Source: Catellatospora citrea
GTDB lineage: Bacteria; Actinomycetota; Actinomycetes; Mycobacteriales; Micromonosporaceae
Direction: 5' to 3'
Assembly: GCF_003610235.1 (NCBI RefSeq)
Contig: NZ_RAPR01000001.1
Span: 2,418,001 to 2,482,000, forward strand
DNA: 64,000 bases
In this document: piece by piece, positions 46,807 to 56,626 of the stretch
Layout of the letters: every line of letters begins with the position of its first letter
How positions within the stretch are numbered: the stretch's first letter is position 1
Translations under genes and position numbers: made by a program
The notes under the pieces: generated by a model
The model's input: only the letters and a program-made list of their open reading frames with translations
What the model was told of the DNA's origin: nothing
The model's database searches: none

Positions 46807-47739
46807 TCAGCCGAGCAGACGGGCGGCGGAAGCCAGATATTCACGGCCCTCGTCAGGGGCGCCGTGCCGGATCATGTAGAGGCCCGACGACACGCGTTCG
46901 GTGAAGCCCCACTCCCAGATCGCCTGCTCGTCCACGCCGGTCGCCGCGGCCAGGCGCGCGCAGTAGCCCCGCACCAGTCCGACCGGGTCCGCCGCCGCCA
47001 GCACCTCGTCCGTCCAGCCGCGCACCGCCACGCCCAGGTCGTAGGCCGGATCGCAGAGGAAGCCGTCCGGGTCGATGAAGACATGGCCCGACTCCGCGCC
47101 GGGCCGGGGCGACAGCACCGCGAGCGCGTTGTCCGGGTGCGGATCGCCGTGGCAGACCACGCTGCGGTCCAGGTCGAACGCGGCCGCGCGGCGGCGCGCG
47201 TAGCCGACGGCCCGCTCGACGACCGCGGCCGGGCAGGGCTCCCCGGTCTCCGGCCACAGCTCGACGATCAGCTCGGCGAGCGTGCTGGCCTTGTCCGTGC
47301 CTGGCGGAACGGCCGCGTCCGGCGGCCGGGGCACGAGCCAGGCCTGCCGCAGCGTCGCGGCGAGCACGTCCAGCACGTGCTCCGGCGACGGCGCGGTGCT
47401 GCCCAGGGCCGGGCCGAGCGGTTCCAGCAGCGCGGCGTCACGTTCCGGATCGTGGGCGTACAGCCGGACGTAACCGTGCCCGTCCGCGGCCGCGATGGTG
47501 CGCACCTGCCCCGCGAAGCCGTCCCCGGGCGGCGCGAGCCGCAGCACCGCCTCGGTGCCGTCGGCCCTGGCCACGCGCAGCACCAGCGCCGCCGACCCGC
47601 CGTCCAGCGCCGCGCCGGGCGTCAGCGACCAGTCGGCGCACACCTGCGCCAGCCGCTCCGGCAGCTTCGCCAGCCAGTCGCGGCCCGGCACACCCTTGCT
47701 CAGCGCGGTGCGCCGCATCCGGTCGGGAAACTCGATCAC
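46807..47739 (-). CDS. Aminoglycoside phosphotransferase family, APH(6)-like
   Basis: 310-aa kinase-fold protein of the aminoglycoside/hydroxyurea kinase group that includes streptomycin 6-phosphotransferase. Catalytic loop VVCHGDPHPDN and metal motif IDPDGFLCDPAYDLG are intact; the amino-terminal RLAQVCADWSLTPGAALDGG is typical. It could inactivate an aminoglycoside or phosphorylate a cell metabolite; there is no adjacent antibiotic biosynthesis gene. Start GTG 47739 is tentative. Divergent from the 169-aa exported protein. Confidence 0.85.
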   Translation of the reverse strand: MIEFPDRMRRTALSKGVPGRDWLAKLPERLAQVCADWSLTPGAALDGGSAALVLRVARADGTEAVLRLAPPGDGFAGQVRTIAAADGHGYVRLYAHDPERDAALLEPLGPALGSTAPSPEHVLDVLAATLRQAWLVPRPPDAAVPPGTDKASTLAELIVELWPETGEPCPAAVVERAVGYARRRAAAFDLDRSVVCHGDPHPDNALAVLSPRPGAESGHVFIDPDGFLCDPAYDLGVAVRGWTDEVLAAADPVGLVRGYCARLAAATGVDEQAIWEWGFTERVSSGLYMIRHGAPDEGREYLASAARLLG

Positions 47740-48478: not shown

Positions 48479-49240
48479 ATGCTCGCGCGCGCCTGGGGAA
48501 TGGCCAGATCTCTCGTGATGTACCACGGCATTCCCGGCCGCCACCGGCGGATGCGCCGCTTCTACGGGCAGTTCCTCGGTCCGGGCGACCTGGCCTTCGA
48601 CGTCGGCGCGCACGTCGGCAGCCGGGTGCGCCCGTGGCGGCGGCTCGGCGCGCGGGTGCTCGCGATCGAGCCGCAGCCCGACTGCCTGCGCGTGCTGCGC
48701 CTGTTCTTCGGACGCGACCCGGGCGTGACCATCCTGCCCACCGCCGTCGGCGCGCGGCCGGGCACGGCCTCGCTCGCGCTGTCCTCGGCCACCCCGACGG
48801 TGTCCTCGCTGTCGCACGAGTGGATCGAGTCGGTGACCGCGGCCGACGAGCGCTTCGCCGAGGTCCGCTGGGACCGCTCGGTCGAGGTCGAGGTGGTCAC
48901 CCTGGACGATCTCATCGCGACGCACGGCGAACCGGCCTTCTGCAAGATCGACGTCGAGGGCTTCGAGGCGGACGTGCTGCGCGGGCTGTCCCGGCCGCTG
49001 CGCGCGCTGTCCTTCGAGTACCTGCCGTTCGCCCACGACGCCGCCCTCACCACACTGGACCTGGTCGAACAGCTCGGTGAGCGCGCGGCCGGCTACGAGT
49101 ACAACTACGCGCCCGTGGAGACCATGCGTTTCGCGAGCGCGCAGTGGCTCGACGCGACAGGCCTGGTGCAACTGCTGGAGGAGCGCTTCCGCGCGCTCGG
49201 CCGCTCCGGCGACGTCTACGCCCGCGCCCGCTCGCTGTAG
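48479..49240 (+). CDS. FkbM family methyltransferase
   Basis: 253-aa SAM-dependent methyltransferase of the FkbM family, O-methylating sugars, lipids or polyketides. SAM-binding motif FDVGAHVGSRVRPW (a Gly-Ser variant of DxGAnxG), acidic strand end AIEPQPD, and the family's KIDVEGFEADVLRGL. Leaderless: TAGGCT 5 nt before the ATG. Its 3' end overlaps the convergent phosphatidyltransferase gene by 25 bp. Its position beside a glycosyltransferase/pterin-like cluster suggests it modifies that product (inference). Confidence 0.9.
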   Translation: MLARAWGMARSLVMYHGIPGRHRRMRRFYGQFLGPGDLAFDVGAHVGSRVRPWRRLGARVLAIEPQPDCLRVLRLFFGRDPGVTILPTAVGARPGTASLALSSATPTVSSLSHEWIESVTAADERFAEVRWDRSVEVEVVTLDDLIATHGEPAFCKIDVEGFEADVLRGLSRPLRALSFEYLPFAHDAALTTLDLVEQLGERAAGYEYNYAPVETMRFASAQWLDATGLVQLLEERFRALGRSGDVYARARSL

Positions 49241-49956
49241 CCCTCCACCCGGGCCGGGCGGCTCGCCGGAAGCCGTCGCCGCCACAGGAAGATCACGTCG
49301 CGGCCGAAGGACTCGGTGAGCAGGGCCAGCGCGCCCACCAGCGCGACGACGGCCACCGGCCGGGGCAGCACGTCCGCGGCGGCGGTCACCAGGACGATGC
49401 CCTGGATCGCGGCCACCACCTTGCGCCAGTACCGCGGGAACAGCTGCCCGCGCAGCCACGGCAGCACCCAGGTCGCGACGACGTACACGTAGCGCATCGC
49501 GCCGATCGCCAGCACCCACAGCCCCGCGGCCGGGGCGACGTAGCAGCTCAGCACGAGGATGAGGAACGCGTCGACCTCCATGTCGAACCGCGCGCCGAAC
49601 GCCGACGCGGTGGCCGTGCGCCGCGCGACCTTGCCGTCGACCGCGTCCAGCACCAGCGCCACGACCGTGATCCCGACCAGCACCGGCACCGGCACGTCAC
49701 CGGCGAAGGAGGCCGCGGTCAGCGCGGTGACACAGCCGACGAGCGCGGCCCGGGTCTGGGTGACCAGGTCGGCGGGTCCGAACGCGACCAGCCCGGCGGT
49801 GTGCATCGCCCGGGTCAGCAGCACGCACGAGCCGAGCGCGTACACGGTCCCCGCGGCCCGTCCGGCGGGGCCGAGGCCGACCGCCGCCGACAGCAGCGCG
49901 AGCATGGCGAACTGGAGCAACAGCCCGATCACCGGGCCCGGTCTCACCGGCGGCAC
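49216..49956 (-). CDS. CDP-alcohol phosphatidyltransferase
   Basis: 246-aa integral membrane enzyme with six or so helices. The CDP-alcohol motif DG-x2-AR-x8-G-x3-D-x3-D is complete in VDGKVARRTATASAFGARFD plus MEVDA. It transfers a phosphatidyl group, or a related phospho-group, from a CDP-linked donor to an alcohol. GTG 49956 is chosen for GGAGG 4 nt upstream. Divergent from the 50001-56626 operon with a 44-bp gap, so promoters overlap; it is probably functionally linked to that cluster. Confidence 0.88.
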   Translation of the reverse strand: MPPVRPGPVIGLLLQFAMLALLSAAVGLGPAGRAAGTVYALGSCVLLTRAMHTAGLVAFGPADLVTQTRAALVGCVTALTAASFAGDVPVPVLVGITVVALVLDAVDGKVARRTATASAFGARFDMEVDAFLILVLSCYVAPAAGLWVLAIGAMRYVYVVATWVLPWLRGQLFPRYWRKVVAAIQGIVLVTAAADVLPRPVAVVALVGALALLTESFGRDVIFLWRRRLPASRPARVEGYSERARA

Positions 49957-50000
49957 CGTACCTCCGTTAGGTTCGACCTTGATCCGAGGAGAGGAAGCCG

Positions 50001-50981
50001 ATGGCATCCTACGCGCGTGCGTTCTGGACGGCCGCGCCCGGCGCGGGCGAGATCCGCCCCGTGGCGCTGCCCGATCCGGGCCCCGGCGAGGTGCTGGTGC
50101 GCACCGTCCACTCCGGCGTGAGCCGGGGCACCGAGACGCTGGTCTTCCGCGGCGAGGTCCCGCCCGGCCAGTACGCCGTGATGCGCGCACCCTTCCAGGA
50201 GGGCGACTTCCCGGGACCGGTCAAGTACGGCTACCTCAACGTCGGCGTCGTCGAGCAGGGCCCGCCGGACCTGCTCGGACGCACCGTGTTCTGCCTGTAC
50301 CCGCACCAGACCCGTTTCGTCGTCCCGGCGGGCGCGGTGGTGCCGGTGCCCGACGGCGTGCCCGCGCGGCGTGCCGTGCTCGCGGGCACCGTGGAGACCG
50401 CGGTCAACGCGCTGTGGGACGGCCCGCCGCTGGTCGGCGACCGGATCGCGGTGCTCGGTGCGGGCATGGTCGGCTGCTGCGTCGCGGCGCTGCTGGCCCG
50501 CTTTCCCGGGGTGTCGGTGCAGCTGGTGGACACGAATCCGGAGCGGGCGACGGTCGCGGCCGCGCTCGGCGTCGCGTTCGCCTCGCCCGAGGCCGCCCAC
50601 GGTGACTGCGACCTGGTCTTCCACGCCTCCGCCAGCGGCCCCGGCCTGCAGCGTGCCCTGGACCTGCTCGCCCCGGAGGGCACCGTCGTCGAGCTGAGCT
50701 GGTACGGCGACCGCGCGGTGCACCTGTCCCTGGGCGGGGCCTTCCACTCCGGACGGCTGACCGTCCGCGGCAGCCAGGTCGGCACGGTCTCCCCGGCCCG
50801 CGCCGCGCGCCGCTCCTACGCCGACCGGCTCGCGATCGCCCTGGACCTGCTGCGCGACCCGGCCTTCGACGCGCTGCTGTCCGGCGAGTCGAGCTTCGAC
50901 CGGCTGCCCGAGGTGCTGGCCGGCCTCGCCGACGGCAGCCTGCCCGCCCTGTGCCACACCATCAGCTACGACGGAGAGTGA
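50001..50981 (+). CDS. Medium-chain dehydrogenase/reductase without zinc site
   Basis: 326-aa MDR-superfamily oxidoreductase. GroES-like domain at ~1-115 and 290-326; Rossmann motif [10 protein letters not shown] at about 151-160 with acidic VDTNPER for NAD(P) binding. The usual zinc cysteine/histidine pattern is missing ([10 protein letters not shown] where a Cys-Gly-Ser/Thr-Asp would be), resembling BchC-like and quinone-type members. ATG preceded by GAGGAGAGGAAG. First gene of an apparently single transcript to 56626. Substrate unknown; presumably an alcohol of the cluster's product. Confidence 0.85.
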
Positions 50982-50986
50982 CCCCC

Positions 50987-51385
50987 ATGTTCAGCGTGAC
51001 GGTCCGCGACCACATGATGATCGCCCACAGTTTCCGGGGCGAGGTCTTCGGCCCGGCGCAGCGCCTGCACGGCGCGACGTTCGTGGTCGACGCGACGTTC
51101 AAGCGTGCCGAGCTCGACCCCGACGACATCGTGGTCGACATCGCCGCCGCGTCGCAGGAGCTCAACGCCGTCGTCGGCGCGCTGAACCTGCGCAACCTCG
51201 ACGACGACCCCGCGTTCGCGGGCGTGAACACCACGACCGAGAAGCTCGCCCAGGTCATCGCGGACCGGCTGGCGGCCCGGGTGCACGCGGGCGCGTTCGG
51301 CGAGAACGCGCGCGGACTGGCCGGGATCGCGGTGACGCTGCACGAGTCGCACATCGCCTGGGCCAGCTACGAGCGGCCCCTGTGA
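50987..51385 (+). CDS. Divergent PTPS/QueD-family protein lacking active-site residues
   Basis: 132-aa tunnelling-fold protein related to 6-pyruvoyl-tetrahydropterin and 6-carboxy-tetrahydropterin synthases. It keeps IAHSF (His14), RLHG (His28), NLDDDPAF and the Glu of NTTTEKLAQ and [13 protein letters not shown]. But the third zinc histidine of RLHGH is Ala30, and the position of the catalytic Cys four residues before His28 is Ala24. It may therefore bind a pterin or pyrimidine without the classical reaction. The ATG lies 5 nt after the previous stop codon with GGAGAG upstream. Confidence 0.8.
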
Positions 51386-51450
51386 GCACCGTCCACGTCG
51401 CCGGACCGCGCGACCGGCGCCCGGCCGGCGGGTGAGCACCGTCCACGTCG
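51382..51450 (+). repeat. 19-nt direct repeat duplicating the glycosyltransferase start
   Basis: GTGAGCACCGTCCACGTCG occurs at 51382-51400, overlapping the PTPS stop codon, and again at 51432-51450 as the start of the glycosyltransferase gene. From the first copy a 17-codon frame ([17 protein letters not shown]) ends at a TGA that overlaps the second GTG. A small local duplication seems to have produced a decoy start and coupling mini-frame. Confidence 0.75.
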
Positions 51451-52487
51451 TCCTGCCGGGCGCGGTCGACGACCCGGCCGCGCCCAGCGGCGGCAACGTC
51501 TACGACCGGCGCGTCTGCGACGGCTTGGCCGCGTCCGGGTGGACGGTGCACGAGCACCCCGTGCCCGGCGCGTGGCCCGCGCCCGGCCCGGCCGACCTCG
51601 CCCGGCTGGCCGGGCTGCTGGCGGCGCTGCCCGACGACGCGGTCGTGCTGCTCGACGGACTCGTCACCGTCGGCGCGCCGGACGTGCTCGCCGCGGGCAC
51701 GCCCCGGCTGCGGCCGGTCGTGCTCGCGCACATGCTGTTCGGCGACGACGATCCGGGCCTGCGGCCCGGCGAGGCCCGGGTGCTGCGGGCGGCGGCCGCC
51801 GTCGTCACCACCAGCCGGTGGTGCCGCGAGCGCGCCATCGAGGCGTACGCCCTGCCGCCCGCGCACGTCCACGCCGCCCCGCCCGGCGTCGACCCCGCGC
51901 CCCTCGCCCCCGGCTCACCGGCCGGGAACCGGCTGCTCTGCGTCGCCGCGCTCGCCCCGCACAAGGGCCACCACCTGCTTCTCGACGCCCTGGACACGCT
52001 CACCGGGTTACCCTGGAGCTGCACCTTCGTCGGCTCGCCCGACCGCGACCCGGCGTACGCGGCACGGCTGCGGGAACACGCGGTCGCCGACCGGATCACC
52101 TTCGCCGGTGTGCGCACGGGTGCGGGATTGGCCGCCGCGTACAGCGTCGCGGACCTGCTCGTGCTGCCCTCACGCGGGGAGAGCTATGGCATGGTCGTCA
52201 CCGAAGCGCTGGCCCGGGGTATCCCGGTGCTGGCCTGCGACGTGCAGGGGCTGCCCGAAGCGCTGGGCGCGGCCCCGGACGGCAACCTGCCCGGCCTGCT
52301 CGTCGCGCCCGACAGCGCGGCGCTCGCCGACGCCCTGCGCCGCTGGCTCACCGAACCGGACCTGCGCGACCGGCTGCGGGCCGCGGCCCGCGCGCGGCGC
52401 GCTCACCTCACCGGCTGGACCCGCACCGCGGACGAGGTCGGCGCGGTGCTCTCCCGGGTGGCGCAGCCTGGTCCGCTGGCCCGATGA
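51432..52487 (+). CDS. Glycosyltransferase family 4
   Basis: 351-aa GT-B glycosyltransferase. Amino-terminal acceptor domain begins VHVVLPGAVDDPAAPSGGN; the carboxy-terminal donor domain has LLCVAALAPHKGHHLLLDAL and the E-x7-E motif in SRGESYGMVVTEALARG typical of GT4. Cytoplasmic, probably using a nucleotide sugar. The GTG start is coupled to the preceding mini-frame by GTGA overlap. Lies between a PTPS-like gene and a YbhN-like membrane gene. Confidence 0.9.
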   Translation: MSTVHVVLPGAVDDPAAPSGGNVYDRRVCDGLAASGWTVHEHPVPGAWPAPGPADLARLAGLLAALPDDAVVLLDGLVTVGAPDVLAAGTPRLRPVVLAHMLFGDDDPGLRPGEARVLRAAAAVVTTSRWCRERAIEAYALPPAHVHAAPPGVDPAPLAPGSPAGNRLLCVAALAPHKGHHLLLDALDTLTGLPWSCTFVGSPDRDPAYAARLREHAVADRITFAGVRTGAGLAAAYSVADLLVLPSRGESYGMVVTEALARGIPVLACDVQGLPEALGAAPDGNLPGLLVAPDSAALADALRRWLTEPDLRDRLRAAARARRAHLTGWTRTADEVGAVLSRVAQPGPLAR

Positions 52488-52566
52488 CGGCGCTGTGTGT
52501 ATAAATCCACAGACACGCGGGGACGGTACCTCTAGGAAGGATGAAGAGTCTGGACAGGAGGTCGCG

Positions 52567-53535
52567 TTGCACCGTGCCGTGACAGGGGTCCGCCTGCCGC
52601 CTTCGGGCCGCGCCGCGGGTCGCCTCGGGGCCTGGGCGCGCGCCGCCGCCGGGCTGCTCATCCTCGCGCTGCTCGTGTGGCAGGTGGGCACCGGACCGTT
52701 CCTCGACGGCGTACGCCTGGTCGACCGGCCCGCGCTGCTGGCCGCGCTCGGCCTCGGCGCGCTGAGCACGGTGTGCTGCGCCTGGCGGTGGAGCCTGGTC
52801 GCCGAGGGCCTCGGCGTGCGGCTGCCGCTGGGCCGGGCCGTCAAGGCGTACTACCGCTCCCTGTTCCTCAACACGACGCTGCCCGGCGGTGTGGTCGGCG
52901 ACGTGCACCGCGCCGTGCGGCACGGCCTGGACATCAGCGACGTCCGGCTCGCCGTGCGGGCCGTGGTGCTGGAACGCGCCATCGGGCTGACCGTGCAGAT
53001 CACCGCCTCGCTGCTGCTGCTGCTCGTGCTGCCGTCCCCGGTCCGGGACCGCATGCCGGTGATCGTCGCGGCCGTCGCCGCGACCGGGCTGGCCGTCGCG
53101 CTGGGCGTGCGGGCGGTGGCCCGCGGCCGGTCCGCCCGCTGGGCGACGGCGCTGCGGTCGGCGTACACCGATGTCCGGGAGGTGCTGCTCACCCGCCGCC
53201 GCTGGGTCGGCATCGGGCTGGCCTCCGCGGTCGTCGTGACCGGACAGCTCGTCATGTTCGTGATAGCCGCCCGCACGGCGGGCTCGGACGCGCCGGTGAC
53301 CCTGCTGGTGCCGCTGACGCAGCTGGCCCTGCTGGCCATGGCGCTGCCGCTGAACATCGCCGGCTGGGGCCCCCGCGAAGGCGTCGCGGCCTGGGCGTTC
53401 GCCGCCGCCGGCATGACCTCCACGCAGGGCGTCGCCGCCGCCGTCACCTACGGCGTGCTGGGCCTGGTCGCCGCGCTGCCCGGCGCCGCCGTCCTGCTGG
53501 CACGCACCAGGAGTCGGAGTGGACAGCATGCGTGA
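52567..53535 (+). CDS. YbhN/LPG-synthase-TM-like membrane protein
   Basis: 322-aa integral membrane protein of the UPF0104/lysylphosphatidylglycerol-synthase transmembrane family, with about eight helices and the family segment FLNTTLPGGVVGDVHRA. It lacks the catalytic GNAT-like domain of MprF; such proteins are suspected lipid-linked-substrate flippases. I choose TTG 52567, with AGGAGG 5 nt upstream. The 79-nt gap before it holds a TATAAAT box and a 13-residue upstream frame (ATG 52541 to TGA 52582) overlapping the start. Confidence 0.82.
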   Translation: MHRAVTGVRLPPSGRAAGRLGAWARAAAGLLILALLVWQVGTGPFLDGVRLVDRPALLAALGLGALSTVCCAWRWSLVAEGLGVRLPLGRAVKAYYRSLFLNTTLPGGVVGDVHRAVRHGLDISDVRLAVRAVVLERAIGLTVQITASLLLLLVLPSPVRDRMPVIVAAVAATGLAVALGVRAVARGRSARWATALRSAYTDVREVLLTRRRWVGIGLASAVVVTGQLVMFVIAARTAGSDAPVTLLVPLTQLALLAMALPLNIAGWGPREGVAAWAFAAAGMTSTQGVAAAVTYGVLGLVAALPGAAVLLARTRSRSGQHA

Positions 53536-54235
53536 GCGCCCGTACGTCCTGCTCAGTTGCAGCATGTCGATCGACGGCTACCTCGACGGCGCGACCGACG
53601 AGCGGCTGCTGCTGTCGAACGCGGCGGACTTCGACCGGGTCGACGCGGTCCGCGCCTCGTGCGACGCGATCCTGGTCGGCGCGCGCACGGTGCGCCGCGA
53701 CAACCCGCGCCTGATGGTGCGCACGCAGGCCCGGCGCGACGCCCGGACGGCCCGCGGCGTGCCCGAGTGCCCGATCAAGGTGACCGTCACCGAGAAGGCC
53801 AGGCTGGACCCCGACGCCGCGTTCTTCACCGCCGGCGACGCGGAGAAGATCGTCTACTGCGCCAGCCCGCGGGTCGAGCACGCCCGCGCCCAGCTCGGCG
53901 GCGTGGCGACCGTGGTCGACGGCGGCATGCCCGTGGACCTGCGCCAGGTCACCGAGGACCTGTACGACCGGGGCGTGTGCCGGCTGATGGTCGAGGGCGG
54001 CGGCACCATCCACACCCAGTTCCTGACCGCCGACCTCGCCGACGAGCTGCACCTGGTGGTGGCCCCGTTCTTCGTCGGCGACTCGCGGGCGAGCCGCTTC
54101 GTCAACGACGGGGACTTCCCGTGGAACCCTGGACGGCGCGCGAAACTGGCCGACGTCCGGCAGATCGGGGACGTGGTGCTGCTGCGGTACGCGCTGTCGC
54201 CCCGGTTCGACAGCGCCGACCAGGAAGAACGGTGA
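53528..54235 (+). CDS. RibD-C-type pyrimidine reductase
   Basis: 235-aa stand-alone reductase of the RibD carboxy-terminal/dihydrofolate-reductase-like family. Motifs: LLSCSMSIDGYLDG, ILVGARTVRRDNP, and the NADPH loop MVEGGGTIHTQFL. Without a deaminase domain it resembles fungal Rib7 and archaeal ArfC, which reduce the ribosyl side chain of the GTP cyclohydrolase II product before deamination. The gene overlaps the previous one by 8 nt and is followed with a GTGA overlap by GTP cyclohydrolase II, so these steps are probably consecutive. ATG 53528 or GTG 53519 may be the start. Confidence 0.88.
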   Translation: MRERPYVLLSCSMSIDGYLDGATDERLLLSNAADFDRVDAVRASCDAILVGARTVRRDNPRLMVRTQARRDARTARGVPECPIKVTVTEKARLDPDAAFFTAGDAEKIVYCASPRVEHARAQLGGVATVVDGGMPVDLRQVTEDLYDRGVCRLMVEGGGTIHTQFLTADLADELHLVVAPFFVGDSRASRFVNDGDFPWNPGRRAKLADVRQIGDVVLLRYALSPRFDSADQEER

Positions 54236-54885
54236 CCGGCATGCTGCCCCTGGCCACGGTGCGCACCCAGGTCCAGGTGCCGTTGCGGTTCCCCGACGGC
54301 TACACCACCATGGCCCGGGTCGTCACCTTCACCGGGCTGGCCGACGGCCGCGAGCACCTGGCGCTCGGGCTCGGCGACCACGCCACGACCCTGCGGCGCG
54401 ACGCCGACGACCTGCCCGTCCCGCTGGTGCGCCCGCACAGCGAGTGCCTGACCGGGGACGTGTTCGGCAGCCAGCGCTGCGACTGCGGCCCGCAGCTGCG
54501 CGAGGCCGCCGAACGCATCACCGTCGCCGGCGGGTTCCTGCTCTACCTGCGGCAGGAGGGGCGCGGCATCGGCCTGTACGCCAAGATGGAGGCGTATGCG
54601 CTGCAGGACACCGGCCTGGACACCTACGAGGCGAACGTCGCCCTCGGCCACGACGAGGACGCGCGCGACTACACGGTCGCCGCGCAGATGCTGCGCGCCC
54701 TCGACGTGTCCCGGGTCGCGCTGCTGTCCAACAACCCCGACAAGGCCGAGCAGCTCGCCCGGCTGGGGGTCGCGGTGACCGAGCGCGTGCCCACCGCGGT
54801 GCACCTGTCCCCCGCCAACGCCGGCTACCTGGCCACCAAGGCCCGCCACGCCGCGCACACCCTCCAGCTCCGCCCGGCCCGCTGA
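54232..54885 (+). CDS. ribA: GTP cyclohydrolase II
   Basis: 217-aa stand-alone GCH II, converting GTP to 2,5-diamino-6-ribosylamino-4(3H)-pyrimidinone 5'-phosphate, formate and pyrophosphate. Zinc ligands Cys72, Cys83 and Cys85 lie in HSECLTGDVFGSQRCDCG; RQEGRGIGL binds the triphosphate; Tyr122 (EAYALQD) aligns with E. coli Tyr105, so the normal product rather than the formyl intermediate is expected. GTG 54232 is chosen because it overlaps the previous stop and AGGAAG is well spaced. Not in a riboflavin operon: no ribB, ribH, ribE or deaminase is nearby. Confidence 0.93.
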   Translation: MTGMLPLATVRTQVQVPLRFPDGYTTMARVVTFTGLADGREHLALGLGDHATTLRRDADDLPVPLVRPHSECLTGDVFGSQRCDCGPQLREAAERITVAGGFLLYLRQEGRGIGLYAKMEAYALQDTGLDTYEANVALGHDEDARDYTVAAQMLRALDVSRVALLSNNPDKAEQLARLGVAVTERVPTAVHLSPANAGYLATKARHAAHTLQLRPAR

Positions 54886-54886
54886 C

Positions 54887-56626
54887 ATGCTCGACGCGAG
54901 CCGCCCGGCCGAAGAGTCCATCGACCCTGCCAAGGCCACGCCCGTGCCCCCCGGCAGCGAGCCGCAGCCGCTGAGCCGGACCTCAGACCCGGCGCAGGAT
55001 CCGGAGTCGGCGCATGCCGCGCCTTCGCTGCCGCCGGGCCGGGTGCGCCGCGTGCTGCTCGGGCTGGCGATCCTGCTCCTCGCGGTGCTGCTGGTCGTGC
55101 CGAACGAACTCGGCCGGCTCGCCCCCGCGGCGTTCCTGCGCATCCCGGTGGACGGCCTGGTCGCCGTCGCGCTGGCGGTCCTGCTGCCGACCCGGTTCCG
55201 GCGCGTCGCCGTGCCGGTGACCGGCGTCCTGCTCGGCCTGCTCATCATCCTGAAGATCATCAGTCTCGGCTTCTCCGCGGTGCTCGACCGCCCCTTCCAT
55301 CCCGTGCTCGACTGGCCGTTCGTGGTCGCCGGAGCGGACTACCTGCGCCAGTCCAGCGGCTCCGCCGCCATGTGGGCCGCCGTCGCGGGCGCGCTGCTGC
55401 TCGCCCTCGGCGTGCTGCTGCTGGTCGTGGCCGCCTACCGGCACGCCACCCGGCTCTCGCTGCGCCACCGCACCGGCACCACCCGCACCGTGGCCGCGCT
55501 CGCCGCCGCCTGGACCGCGTGCGCCCTGGCCGGGGTCCAGCTGGCGCCCGGCGTGCCGGTGGCCGCGCGCGACTCCTACGACCAGGTGATCCAGGTGCGG
55601 GCGGGCGCCCAGGACGAGCGGGTGTTCGGCGCCCTGCTGTCCGCCGACGCGTACCGCGACGCCCCCGCCGGGGACCTGCTGACCGCGCTGCGCGGCAAGG
55701 ACGTCATCGTCGCCTTCGTGGAGAGCTACGGCAAGGTCGCGCTCGCCGACCCCGAACTGTCCTCGCAGGTCGCACCCGCCCTCGAGGCCGGCAACGCCCG
55801 GCTGCGCGCCGCCGGGTACACCGCGCGCAGCGCCTGGCTCACCTCGCCGACCACCGGCGGCGGCAGCTGGCTGGCCCAGTCCACGCTGCTGTCCGGCCTG
55901 TGGATCGACAACCAGCAGCGCTACCAGACCATGATGGCCAGCGACCGGTTCACCCTGCCCGCCGCGTTCGGCCGGGCCGGCTGGCGCACCGTCGCCGTCA
56001 TGCCCGCCACCACCACCCCGTGGCCCGAGGGCGCGGTCTACGGCTACGACCAGCTCTACACCGCGCCCGACCTCGGCTACCAGGGACCGCGCTACAGCTT
56101 CGCGACCATGCCCGACCAGTACACCCTGCACACCTTCCAGCAGCGCGAACGCGCACCCGGCCACCTGCCGCTGATGGCGGTCATCCCGCTGATCTCCAGC
56201 CACTCGCCCTGGGAGCCCGTGCCGAAGATGCTGCCCTGGGACACCGTCGGCGACGGCTCCGTGTACGACACCGCCGCCGGCTCCGACGACCCCGCCGAGA
56301 TCGTCGAGAAACGCGACCGCGACCGGGTCCGCCACGCCTACCGCAACGCGATCACGTACTCGGTGAACACGCTGGTCTCCTACGTGGAGACGTACGGCGG
56401 CGACGACCTCGTGCTGGTGTTCCTCGGCGATCACCAGCCCTCGCCGTCGGTCTCCGGCCAGCACGCCAGCCGCGACGCGCCGATCACCGTGGTCGCCCGC
56501 GACCCCGCGGTCCTCGACCGGATCACCTCCTGGAACTGGCAGGACGGACTCCACCCCGGCCCCGACGCCCCCGTCTGGCGCATGGACGCCTTCCGGGACC
56601 GGTTCCTCTCCGCGTACGCCCGCTGA
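54887..56626 (+). CDS. LTA-synthase-like sulfatase membrane protein
   Basis: 579-aa membrane protein of the alkaline-phosphatase superfamily. After a ~50-residue polar, Pro-rich cytoplasmic tail come five helices (about 56-75, 80-100, 105-125, 160-185, 195-215), then an extracytoplasmic sulfatase-fold domain from ~265 with VESYGK, a probable nucleophile Thr in LTSPTTGGGSW and the metal motif FLGDHQPS. Relatives transfer phosphoglycerol or phosphoethanolamine to envelope glycans. Begins 1 nt after the ribA stop codon and closes the operon, pointing to an envelope destination for its product. Confidence 0.85.
   Translation: MLDASRPAEESIDPAKATPVPPGSEPQPLSRTSDPAQDPESAHAAPSLPPGRVRRVLLGLAILLLAVLLVVPNELGRLAPAAFLRIPVDGLVAVALAVLLPTRFRRVAVPVTGVLLGLLIILKIISLGFSAVLDRPFHPVLDWPFVVAGADYLRQSSGSAAMWAAVAGALLLALGVLLLVVAAYRHATRLSLRHRTGTTRTVAALAAAWTACALAGVQLAPGVPVAARDSYDQVIQVRAGAQDERVFGALLSADAYRDAPAGDLLTALRGKDVIVAFVESYGKVALADPELSSQVAPALEAGNARLRAAGYTARSAWLTSPTTGGGSWLAQSTLLSGLWIDNQQRYQTMMASDRFTLPAAFGRAGWRTVAVMPATTTPWPEGAVYGYDQLYTAPDLGYQGPRYSFATMPDQYTLHTFQQRERAPGHLPLMAVIPLISSHSPWEPVPKMLPWDTVGDGSVYDTAAGSDDPAEIVEKRDRDRVRHAYRNAITYSVNTLVSYVETYGGDDLVLVFLGDHQPSPSVSGQHASRDAPITVVARDPAVLDRITSWNWQDGLHPGPDAPVWRMDAFRDRFLSAYAR

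Follow-up and report, generated by a model that had tools for sequence, protein, structure and literature searches.

A run of seven genes in the genome of Catellatospora citrea (positions 50001-56626 of the 64,000-nucleotide stretch analysed here, the window) probably encodes a dedicated pathway that branches away from riboflavin synthesis ahead of the deamination step, as judged by comparing sequences across 178 loci. In the pathway we propose, GTP cyclohydrolase II (GCH II) would convert GTP to 2,5-diamino-6-ribosylamino-4(3H)-pyrimidinone 5′-phosphate (DARoPP), a step that in a Streptomyces-type variant would be divided between a GCH II that keeps the formyl group and a deformylase of the creatininase family, and a RibD_C reductase would then turn the ribosyl chain into a ribityl chain with no deamination. 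Comparative evidence argues for these two steps, and the chemistry of the families concerned suggests the remaining three. An NAD-dependent MDR dehydrogenase would oxidise a side-chain hydroxyl, and a PTPS-like protein with its Glu on the 2-amino-4-oxo edge would probably assist ring closure or rearrangement to a pterin; a GT4 glycosyltransferase would glycosylate the compound and, in most relatives, a methyltransferase would methylate it; in the class Actinomycetes a YbhN-like membrane protein would then export the glycoside, and a CDP-alcohol transferase and an LTA-synthase-like protein may as a pair attach (glycero)phosphate or lipid. Our best guess for the product is a glycoside of pyrimidine or pterin origin, which members of the Actinomycetes would export.

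If the proposal holds, it describes a bacterial pathway branching off riboflavin synthesis ahead of deamination. It would also explain why Streptomyces coelicolor has a GCH II that reportedly stops at the formyl stage and a PTPS homologue that is no PTPS, and the pattern predicts the substrates of several orphan enzymes together, making the product findable. Searches of the open-licence literature aimed at the cluster or its S. coelicolor genes turned up no paper describing the cluster or its product, in line with the sequence-only reading of the window, which had stated that no product was known to be described for this gene combination. Two proteins of the matching S. coelicolor region have nevertheless been studied: the structure of SCO6650 has been solved, and SCO6655 has reportedly been worked on.

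Conservation and versions of the gene set

The 178 loci consist of the window, 80 loci found by scanning named genomes for GCH II (the 80 best among 487 relatives) and 97 loci around MDR or PTPS matches. A match to MDR or PTPS is present in 152 of them, and MDR, PTPS and GT4 occur together in 144; the MDR-PTPS pair lies on one strand and at most 400 bases apart in 143 of 145 loci, and GT4 is near the core in 147 of the 152 loci with MDR or PTPS. Since it is conserved across loci in this way, the gene set is more than a chance neighbourhood. The sequence-only reading had named conservation outside close relatives as one of its two tests, and the set was found conserved far outside them. An even draw of 296 Actinomycetota genomes yielded MDR (E up to 1e-20) in 38, with PTPS and GT4 nearby in 36 of these 38 loci, RibD_C near in 30 and GCH II near in 16; the two exceptions (G100 and G009) are lone MDR genes. 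The PTPS-like protein occurs in 29 of 197 class genomes and, among 101 genomes from genus g8, in 41; this genus we take to be Streptomyces because the PTPS-like protein of one of its loci (L115) is nearly identical to SCO6650 (E 2.4e-80). From the GCH II scan, 54 of the 80 loci carry MDR or PTPS, some loci being cut by contig ends.

Leaving out one duplicated locus (L046 and L219 are the same), 151 loci were sorted into versions, two of them named after the residue at a switch position of GCH II. The Tyr type, to which the window belongs, comprises 63 loci: PTPS, GT4, RibD_C and GCH II are present in all of them, YbhN in 62, MDR in 60, a CDP-alcohol transferase in 54 (counted at 100 bits or more, eight loci reaching only 50-70 bits; counted from 45 bits, 61 of the 63), a methyltransferase in 52 and a strong sulfatase match in 34. 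The Met/Leu type, 44 loci from g8 and family f84, has MDR, PTPS, GT4, creatininase, methyltransferase and GCH II throughout, YbhN and the CDP-alcohol transferase in 43 each, RibD_C in ten (all below 150 bits) and sulfatase in five. All 19 loci of a deep family (f18) hold RibD_C, MDR, PTPS, GT4 and FolB; 17 have a different methyltransferase, one has GCH II, and none of the 19 has YbhN, the CDP-alcohol transferase or the sulfatase. A fused type was found at nine loci of families f9, f15 and f20, with MDR, PTPS, GT4 and RibD_C in all nine and GCH II in eight, and neither of the two methyltransferase kinds searched for turned up there. The remaining 16 loci are partial or of other kinds, many of them cut by contig ends. 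The common core is RibD_C, MDR, PTPS and GT4, usually joined by a methyltransferase and GCH II; the methyltransferase is absent from the window and from some other genera.

The FkbM methyltransferase upstream of the run, which the sequence-only reading had counted in, is near the cluster in only 3 of the 178 loci, all of them Catellatospora (the window, L034 and L035), and we reject it as a member and regard it as a local neighbour in this genus. One locus (L120, genome G008) has the MDR-PTPS pair with a weak GT4 match, and GCH II is not nearby. Second copies of the PTPS-like gene occur at L210 (G314) and L216 (G376), where the stretches fetched held no MDR or other cluster gene.

One of the closest known counterparts is in S. 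coelicolor, whose SCO6650 (PDB 3d7j, labelled uncharacterised) is the orthologue of the PTPS-like protein in the window (E 2.3e-65). Loci of the Streptomyces type hold MDR, PTPS, GT4, the methyltransferase, YbhN, creatininase and a Met-type GCH II, whereas the window has a Tyr-type GCH II and an in-cluster RibD_C and lacks creatininase and methyltransferase. From the gene numbers we infer that SCO6655, which we take to be a Met-type GCH II making a formylated product, lies in the same cluster as SCO6650.

GCH II, RibD_C and the proposed entry into the pathway

The GCH II of the window has E. coli RibA (2bz0, E 3.1e-43) as its nearest solved relative, with Tyr aligned to Tyr, and carries SEC...RCDC as well as the Tyr in EAYALQ, as deformylating enzymes do; we take the Cys residues of the first motif to bind zinc and the Tyr of the second to be the switch. 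Spoonamore reportedly found in 2006 that the position of E. coli Tyr105 separates deformylating GCH II from SCO6655, which halts at the formylated product. The switch residue is readable in 116 loci (72 Tyr, 43 Met, one Leu), and a creatininase-family gene lies near all 44 of the Met/Leu loci and near none of the 72 Tyr loci, among which is one duplicate. This creatininase matches PF02633 (E 2.4e-63), and BrbF, a Sinorhizobium enzyme annotated as creatininase, deformylates the formyl intermediate to DARoPP according to an excerpt of PMC9478397. The natural reading is that Tyr clusters would use one enzyme, and Met/Leu clusters two, to reach the same compound, DARoPP. Such chemistry would match what excerpts of the literature describe for the riboflavin branch of archaea and fungi (ArfA/ArfB, Rib7) and for BrbF, where reduction precedes deamination and an enzyme of the creatininase family removes the formyl group (PMC9478397, PMC3631187, PMC13028884). 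The cluster departs from that branch in having no deaminase, lumazine synthase or riboflavin synthase, with MDR, the PTPS-like protein and GT4 in their place.

A tree of 87 rows, which includes 20 of the 44 Met/Leu proteins and in which some rows labelled solo are contig-cut loci, shows the GCH II genes of the cluster to be of at least three lineages: a solo-type lineage with the window, the Met/Leu lineage and the fused one. The GCH II of L127 takes a fourth position on a long branch. By Pfam, GCH II and RibD_C domains share one open reading frame in L132 and L133. The C. citrea genome itself has three GCH II matches, namely the cluster's, that of RibBA and one with no cluster genes nearby, and three GCH II genes were also counted in each of five Streptomyces-type genomes of the first draw; a separate pathway would explain this number in both. 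An excerpt of PMC2853524 lists SCO6655 and SCO2687 in a table of S. coelicolor genes expressed counter to predicted flux, an observation consistent with some role other than primary riboflavin supply. The two g8 loci fetched around the RibD_C orthologue (L162 and L163) have a further GCH II gene no more than about 1.5 kb away from it, and this gene may correspond to SCO2687.

The RibD_C reductase of the window gives its top NCBIfam match to TIGR01508, the archaeal 2,5-diamino reductase, at 143 bits, under the cut-off of 186.45, and its nearest solved structures are 5xv5 and 6p8c. Among the 101 g8 genomes, 41 have the PTPS-like gene, 44 have an orthologue of the window RibD_C (E up to 1e-35) and 32 have both; in 31 of these 32 the orthologue lies elsewhere in the genome, and G377 has it next to its PTPS-like gene (L215). 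Nine PTPS-positive genomes are left without the orthologue, and eight of these carry a more distant RibD_C of their own inside the cluster, beside creatininase (that of L187 is PF01872); the ninth, G296, is 79% complete and its cluster is cut. A dedicated RibD_C of one type or the other is thus present in 40 of the 41 PTPS-positive g8 genomes (32 + 8), and no g8 genome with both types was seen, the locus being cut or rearranged in 5 of the 32 (L192, L193, L208, L213 and L215). Ten further genomes of the Met/Leu type or f84 agree with this pattern: seven with the orthologue, two (G538 and G547) with the in-cluster RibD_C only, and G554, where the orthologue match is interrupted by a stop. The cluster appears to require RibD_C.

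What this reductase acts on is suggested by one residue. According to an excerpt of PMC3631187, a Lys of bacterial RibD (Lys151 in BsRibG) gives preference to the deaminated substrate, the position is Thr in fungi and Asn in archaea, and the T35K change in yeast Rib7 altered substrate preference. The window RibD_C, which has no deaminase domain, carries Ser here as a non-Lys residue in the manner of Rib7. By motif, the residue could be read in 98 of the 105 RibD_C near the core: Ser in 82, Gln in nine and Lys in seven (91 of 98 non-Lys), all nine Gln being in-cluster RibD_C of the Met/Leu type. The distant g8 orthologues have Ser in 7 of 7 read, and the housekeeping RibD of C. citrea and of two f18 genomes has Lys. 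Judged by these sequence patterns, GCH II and RibD_C belong to the cluster, and the creatininase split, the RibD_C pattern, the fusion and the contrast of Ser with Lys together indicate that the route probably passes through undeaminated 2,5-diamino-6-ribitylaminopyrimidinone. The earlier proposal of a deaminase-free module of GCH II and RibD_C is strengthened by the fusion, the complementary distribution and the selectivity residue.

On a contrary view, which we consider very improbable, the two would be surplus genes of riboflavin or F420 synthesis that only happen to lie next to a glycosylation cluster with which they have nothing to do. In its favour, both families are common housekeeping genes, a GCH II match exists somewhere in all 38 MDR-positive genomes, and 20 of the 80 loci from the GCH II scan, some on short contigs, have no MDR, PTPS, GT4 or YbhN nearby; the separate recruitments of GCH II, its fusion with RibD_C, the 40 of 41 genomes with a dedicated RibD_C, the creatininase split between 44 and 72 loci and the selectivity residue speak against it.

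Several observations nevertheless weigh against the dedicated pathway. The creatininase fits the mycofactocin MftE model better than that of ArfB (1.8e-9), and is below both cut-offs. In the tree, the GCH II of the Met/Leu type all sit together next to RibBA and the fused type (97/87), so that the 44 of 44 pattern possibly reflects one or two events; gene order in g8 is unlike that in f84, and the pairing with creatininase may have a single origin retained through rearrangement. In f18, 18 of the 19 loci have no adjoining GCH II, and DARoPP would need RibBA as its source there; 34 of the 44 Met/Leu loci have no RibD_C nearby and rely on one elsewhere. The RibD_C orthologue also occurs in 12 of the 60 PTPS-negative g8 genomes, and the association between the two genes (32/9/12/48, Fisher p = 1.1e-8) is not corrected for phylogeny. 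Genome G008 has MDR and PTPS, and at the cut-offs used it gave no match to RibD_C. All seven Lys-bearing RibD_C among the 98 read belong to the fused lineage, where the argument from the selectivity residue for a route without deamination fails.

The PTPS-like protein, the MDR dehydrogenase and the product

The PTPS-like protein has the T-fold and the anchor Glu of its family, the latter in all 77 relatives aligned, with residue positions that agree with an alignment to solved PTPS. The catalytic machinery is gone: the position of the catalytic Cys is Ala in 76 of the 77 and a gap in one, the triad Asp is retained in one and the triad His in none, and where PTPS has its third zinc His, 61 sequences have Ala and 15 have His. 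The roles of the triad, the zinc His and the pterin-anchor Glu are those we take to hold for PTPS. A canonical PTPS or QueD activity, with the triad and three zinc His, was accordingly rejected, and a 2008 report is said to have found SCO6650 without zinc and without PTPS activity. The residues fit a protein that binds the 2-amino-4-oxo edge and has lost PTPS chemistry, consistent with the pyrimidine or pterin substrate suggested by the sequence-only reading.

At position 177, where the second Rossmann strand ends, the MDR protein has an acidic residue in all 135 sequences, and this presumably selects NAD as it usually does. No invariant Cys occurs in these 135 sequences, and the Cys/His/Cys-or-Glu ligand set of zinc alcohol dehydrogenases is missing; a metal may still be bound by E45/H102/E132. 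The AF2 model (mean pLDDT 82, weak at about residues 61-80 and 231-270) has threonine, sorbitol, xylitol and butanediol dehydrogenases among its top ten fold matches, and the protein is probably an NAD-dependent secondary-alcohol dehydrogenase. A polyol-type NAD dehydrogenase beside a pterin-binding T-fold protein suggests side-chain oxidation followed by ring closure.

Carried further, this leads to a pterin route independent of GTP cyclohydrolase I (GCH I), which we put forward tentatively and think on balance unlikely. GCH II would open GTP, RibD_C would reduce C1′ of the ribose and MDR would oxidise the neighbouring C2′ hydroxyl, the 5-amino group would close on the C2′ ketone with the aid of the triad-less PTPS-like protein, and the resulting 7,8-dihydroneopterin phosphate would be glycosylated, methylated and exported. 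The detour of reducing and then oxidising would give the same net outcome as the Amadori rearrangement of GCH I and, if real, would be a second way to the pterin ring. A link to dihydroneopterin is hinted at by FolB, which adjoins the cluster in all 19 f18 loci (including L122 and L129) and is the sole FolB in 18 of the 19 genomes; this is weak evidence that may reflect plain synteny or a real pterin link, other unrelated neighbours being likewise conserved at these loci. GCH I matches were found in 35 of the 38 MDR-positive genomes. Of the other three, G100 has a lone MDR gene outside any cluster, and G242 and G270 are 68% and 82% complete. Replacement of FolE was rejected as a general role on this count, and the route would be for a product of its own and not for folate.

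Another outcome from the same first steps would be an 8-ribityl pteridine. An outside dicarbonyl would react with the diamino-ribityl pyrimidinone in the way that lumazine synthase condenses one with the uracil, after which the pteridine would be bound by the PTPS-like protein and MDR would act as a double-bond reductase ahead of glycosylation and export. The evidence for the first two steps applies to this outcome equally, and quinone/enoyl-type reductases of the MDR superfamily are among the weaker sequence and fold matches. We judge it improbable, given that the lumazine-synthase family was not found in the subset of neighbours run through Pfam and that the acidic residue 177 suggests NAD, where such reductases usually take NADPH.

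Glycosylated pterins are known from cyanobacteria, and cyanopterin bears an O-methylated sugar according to an excerpt of PMC3546692. Like the pathways to cyanopterin and tetrahydrobiopterin (BH4) glucoside, the proposed one would be a pterin pathway ending in a glycosyltransferase; unlike them, it would start from GCH II and RibD_C, whereas the cyanobacterial ones use GCH I and glycosylate BH4 or 6-hydroxymethylpterin. A PTPS-family protein also acts on a GTP-derived pterin in the 7-deazapurine (queuosine-type) pathway. Genes of that type lie at another locus of the C. citrea genome (L160), and the PTPS-like protein of the cluster is triad-less. L160 (3144000-3163900) is a second pterin-type locus with GCH I, QueC, PTPS, radical SAM and a reverse-transcriptase domain, and it also holds a RibD_C paralogue with 58% identity to that of the window and Lys at the selectivity position.

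Membrane genes and layout of the locus

The YbhN, CDP-alcohol transferase and LTA-synthase-like genes were seen in loci of the class Actinomycetes only, and in none of the 28 loci of deeper lineages that retain MDR, PTPS, GT4 and RibD_C; for this reason they seem to be accessory to a core that can do its work in their absence. The CDP-alcohol transferase is near the core in 97 of the 107 Tyr- and Met/Leu-type loci (54 of 63 and 43 of 44), and the CDP-alcohol signature motif is readable in the window translation. It shares one open reading frame with the LTA-synthase-like protein in 20 loci including one duplicate (such as L074, L091 and L112), both Pfam domains being found in L112 only of three proteins run; being often adjacent and sometimes one open reading frame, the two probably act together. 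In the LTA-synthase-like protein, for which the sequence search gave no solved relative, E279, S280, D515 and H516 are kept in 41 of 41 aligned relatives and T322 in 40, residues we take to be the catalytic Thr and metal ligands of the sulfatase fold.

These genes make a lipid or polymer anchor for the product possible. A reading in which they are central would have the CDP-alcohol transferase and the LTA-synthase-like protein build a phosphodiester glycolipid or teichoic-like polymer of the envelope, with the ribityl pyrimidine as its head group or cap. It draws on the prevalence of the transferase, the fused frames, the transferase motif in the window and the conserved residues of the sulfatase fold; we find it distinctly improbable, with a strong sulfatase match confined to 34 of the 63 loci of the Tyr type and 5 of the 44 of the Met/Leu type and with none of the three membrane genes in the deeper loci. 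The argument for attachment to a lipid or envelope polymer, as first suggested from the window alone, is made only by these three genes, which are linked to the cluster in Actinomycetes; such attachment is possible at most.

All nine genes named in the sequence-only reading are present by Pfam and reading of the sequence (Table 1), and the junctions confirm the tight packing it described. YbhN and RibD_C overlap by 8 bases and RibD_C and GCH II by GTGA; 1 base separates GCH II from the sulfatase and 79 bases separate GT4 from YbhN. The PTPS-GT4 junction (51382-51462) holds a 31-nucleotide imperfect direct repeat at a spacing of 50, in which the GTGA start is duplicated. The first GTGA start overlaps the PTPS stop and is out of frame with GT4, so that GT4 probably starts at the second copy, 46 bases past the PTPS stop.

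Table 1. Genes of the cluster and its upstream neighbours, in window positions
Gene	Position	Strand	Match and remarks
FkbM methyltransferase	48479-49240	+	PF05050
CDP-alcohol phosphatidyltransferase	49216 to about 49932, start uncertain	-	PF01066; divergent from the run
MDR dehydrogenase, BchC-like	50001-50981	+	PF00107; BchC match below cut-off
PTPS-like T-fold protein, SCO6650 orthologue	50990-51385	+	PF01242
GT4 glycosyltransferase	51432-52487	+	PF00534, PF13692, PF13439
YbhN-like / LPG_synthase_TM membrane protein, possible flippase	52567-53535	+	PF03706
RibD_C reductase without deaminase domain, archaeal/Rib7-like	53528-54235	+	PF01872
GTP cyclohydrolase II, Tyr at switch position	54232-54885	+	PF00925; 2bz0
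LTA-synthase-like membrane sulfatase-fold protein	54887-56626	+	PF00884, weak match

Neither RibD deaminase nor RibH nor riboflavin synthase was found among the cluster genes with Pfam and NCBIfam, in agreement with the sequence-only reading, which saw no other riboflavin gene, and the run is no riboflavin operon. The rib locus of the genome lies at 7.586-7.589 Mb on the same contig, 5.1 Mb away, where RibBA was located by the GCH II search and RibD and riboflavin synthase were recognised by reading the translations by eye. The closest named relatives of the window GCH II are from Catellatospora, at 97 and 95% identity. Upstream of the cluster, positions 46807-47739 of the window encode a phosphotransferase resembling APH(6)/hydroxyurea kinases (PF04655, PF01636).

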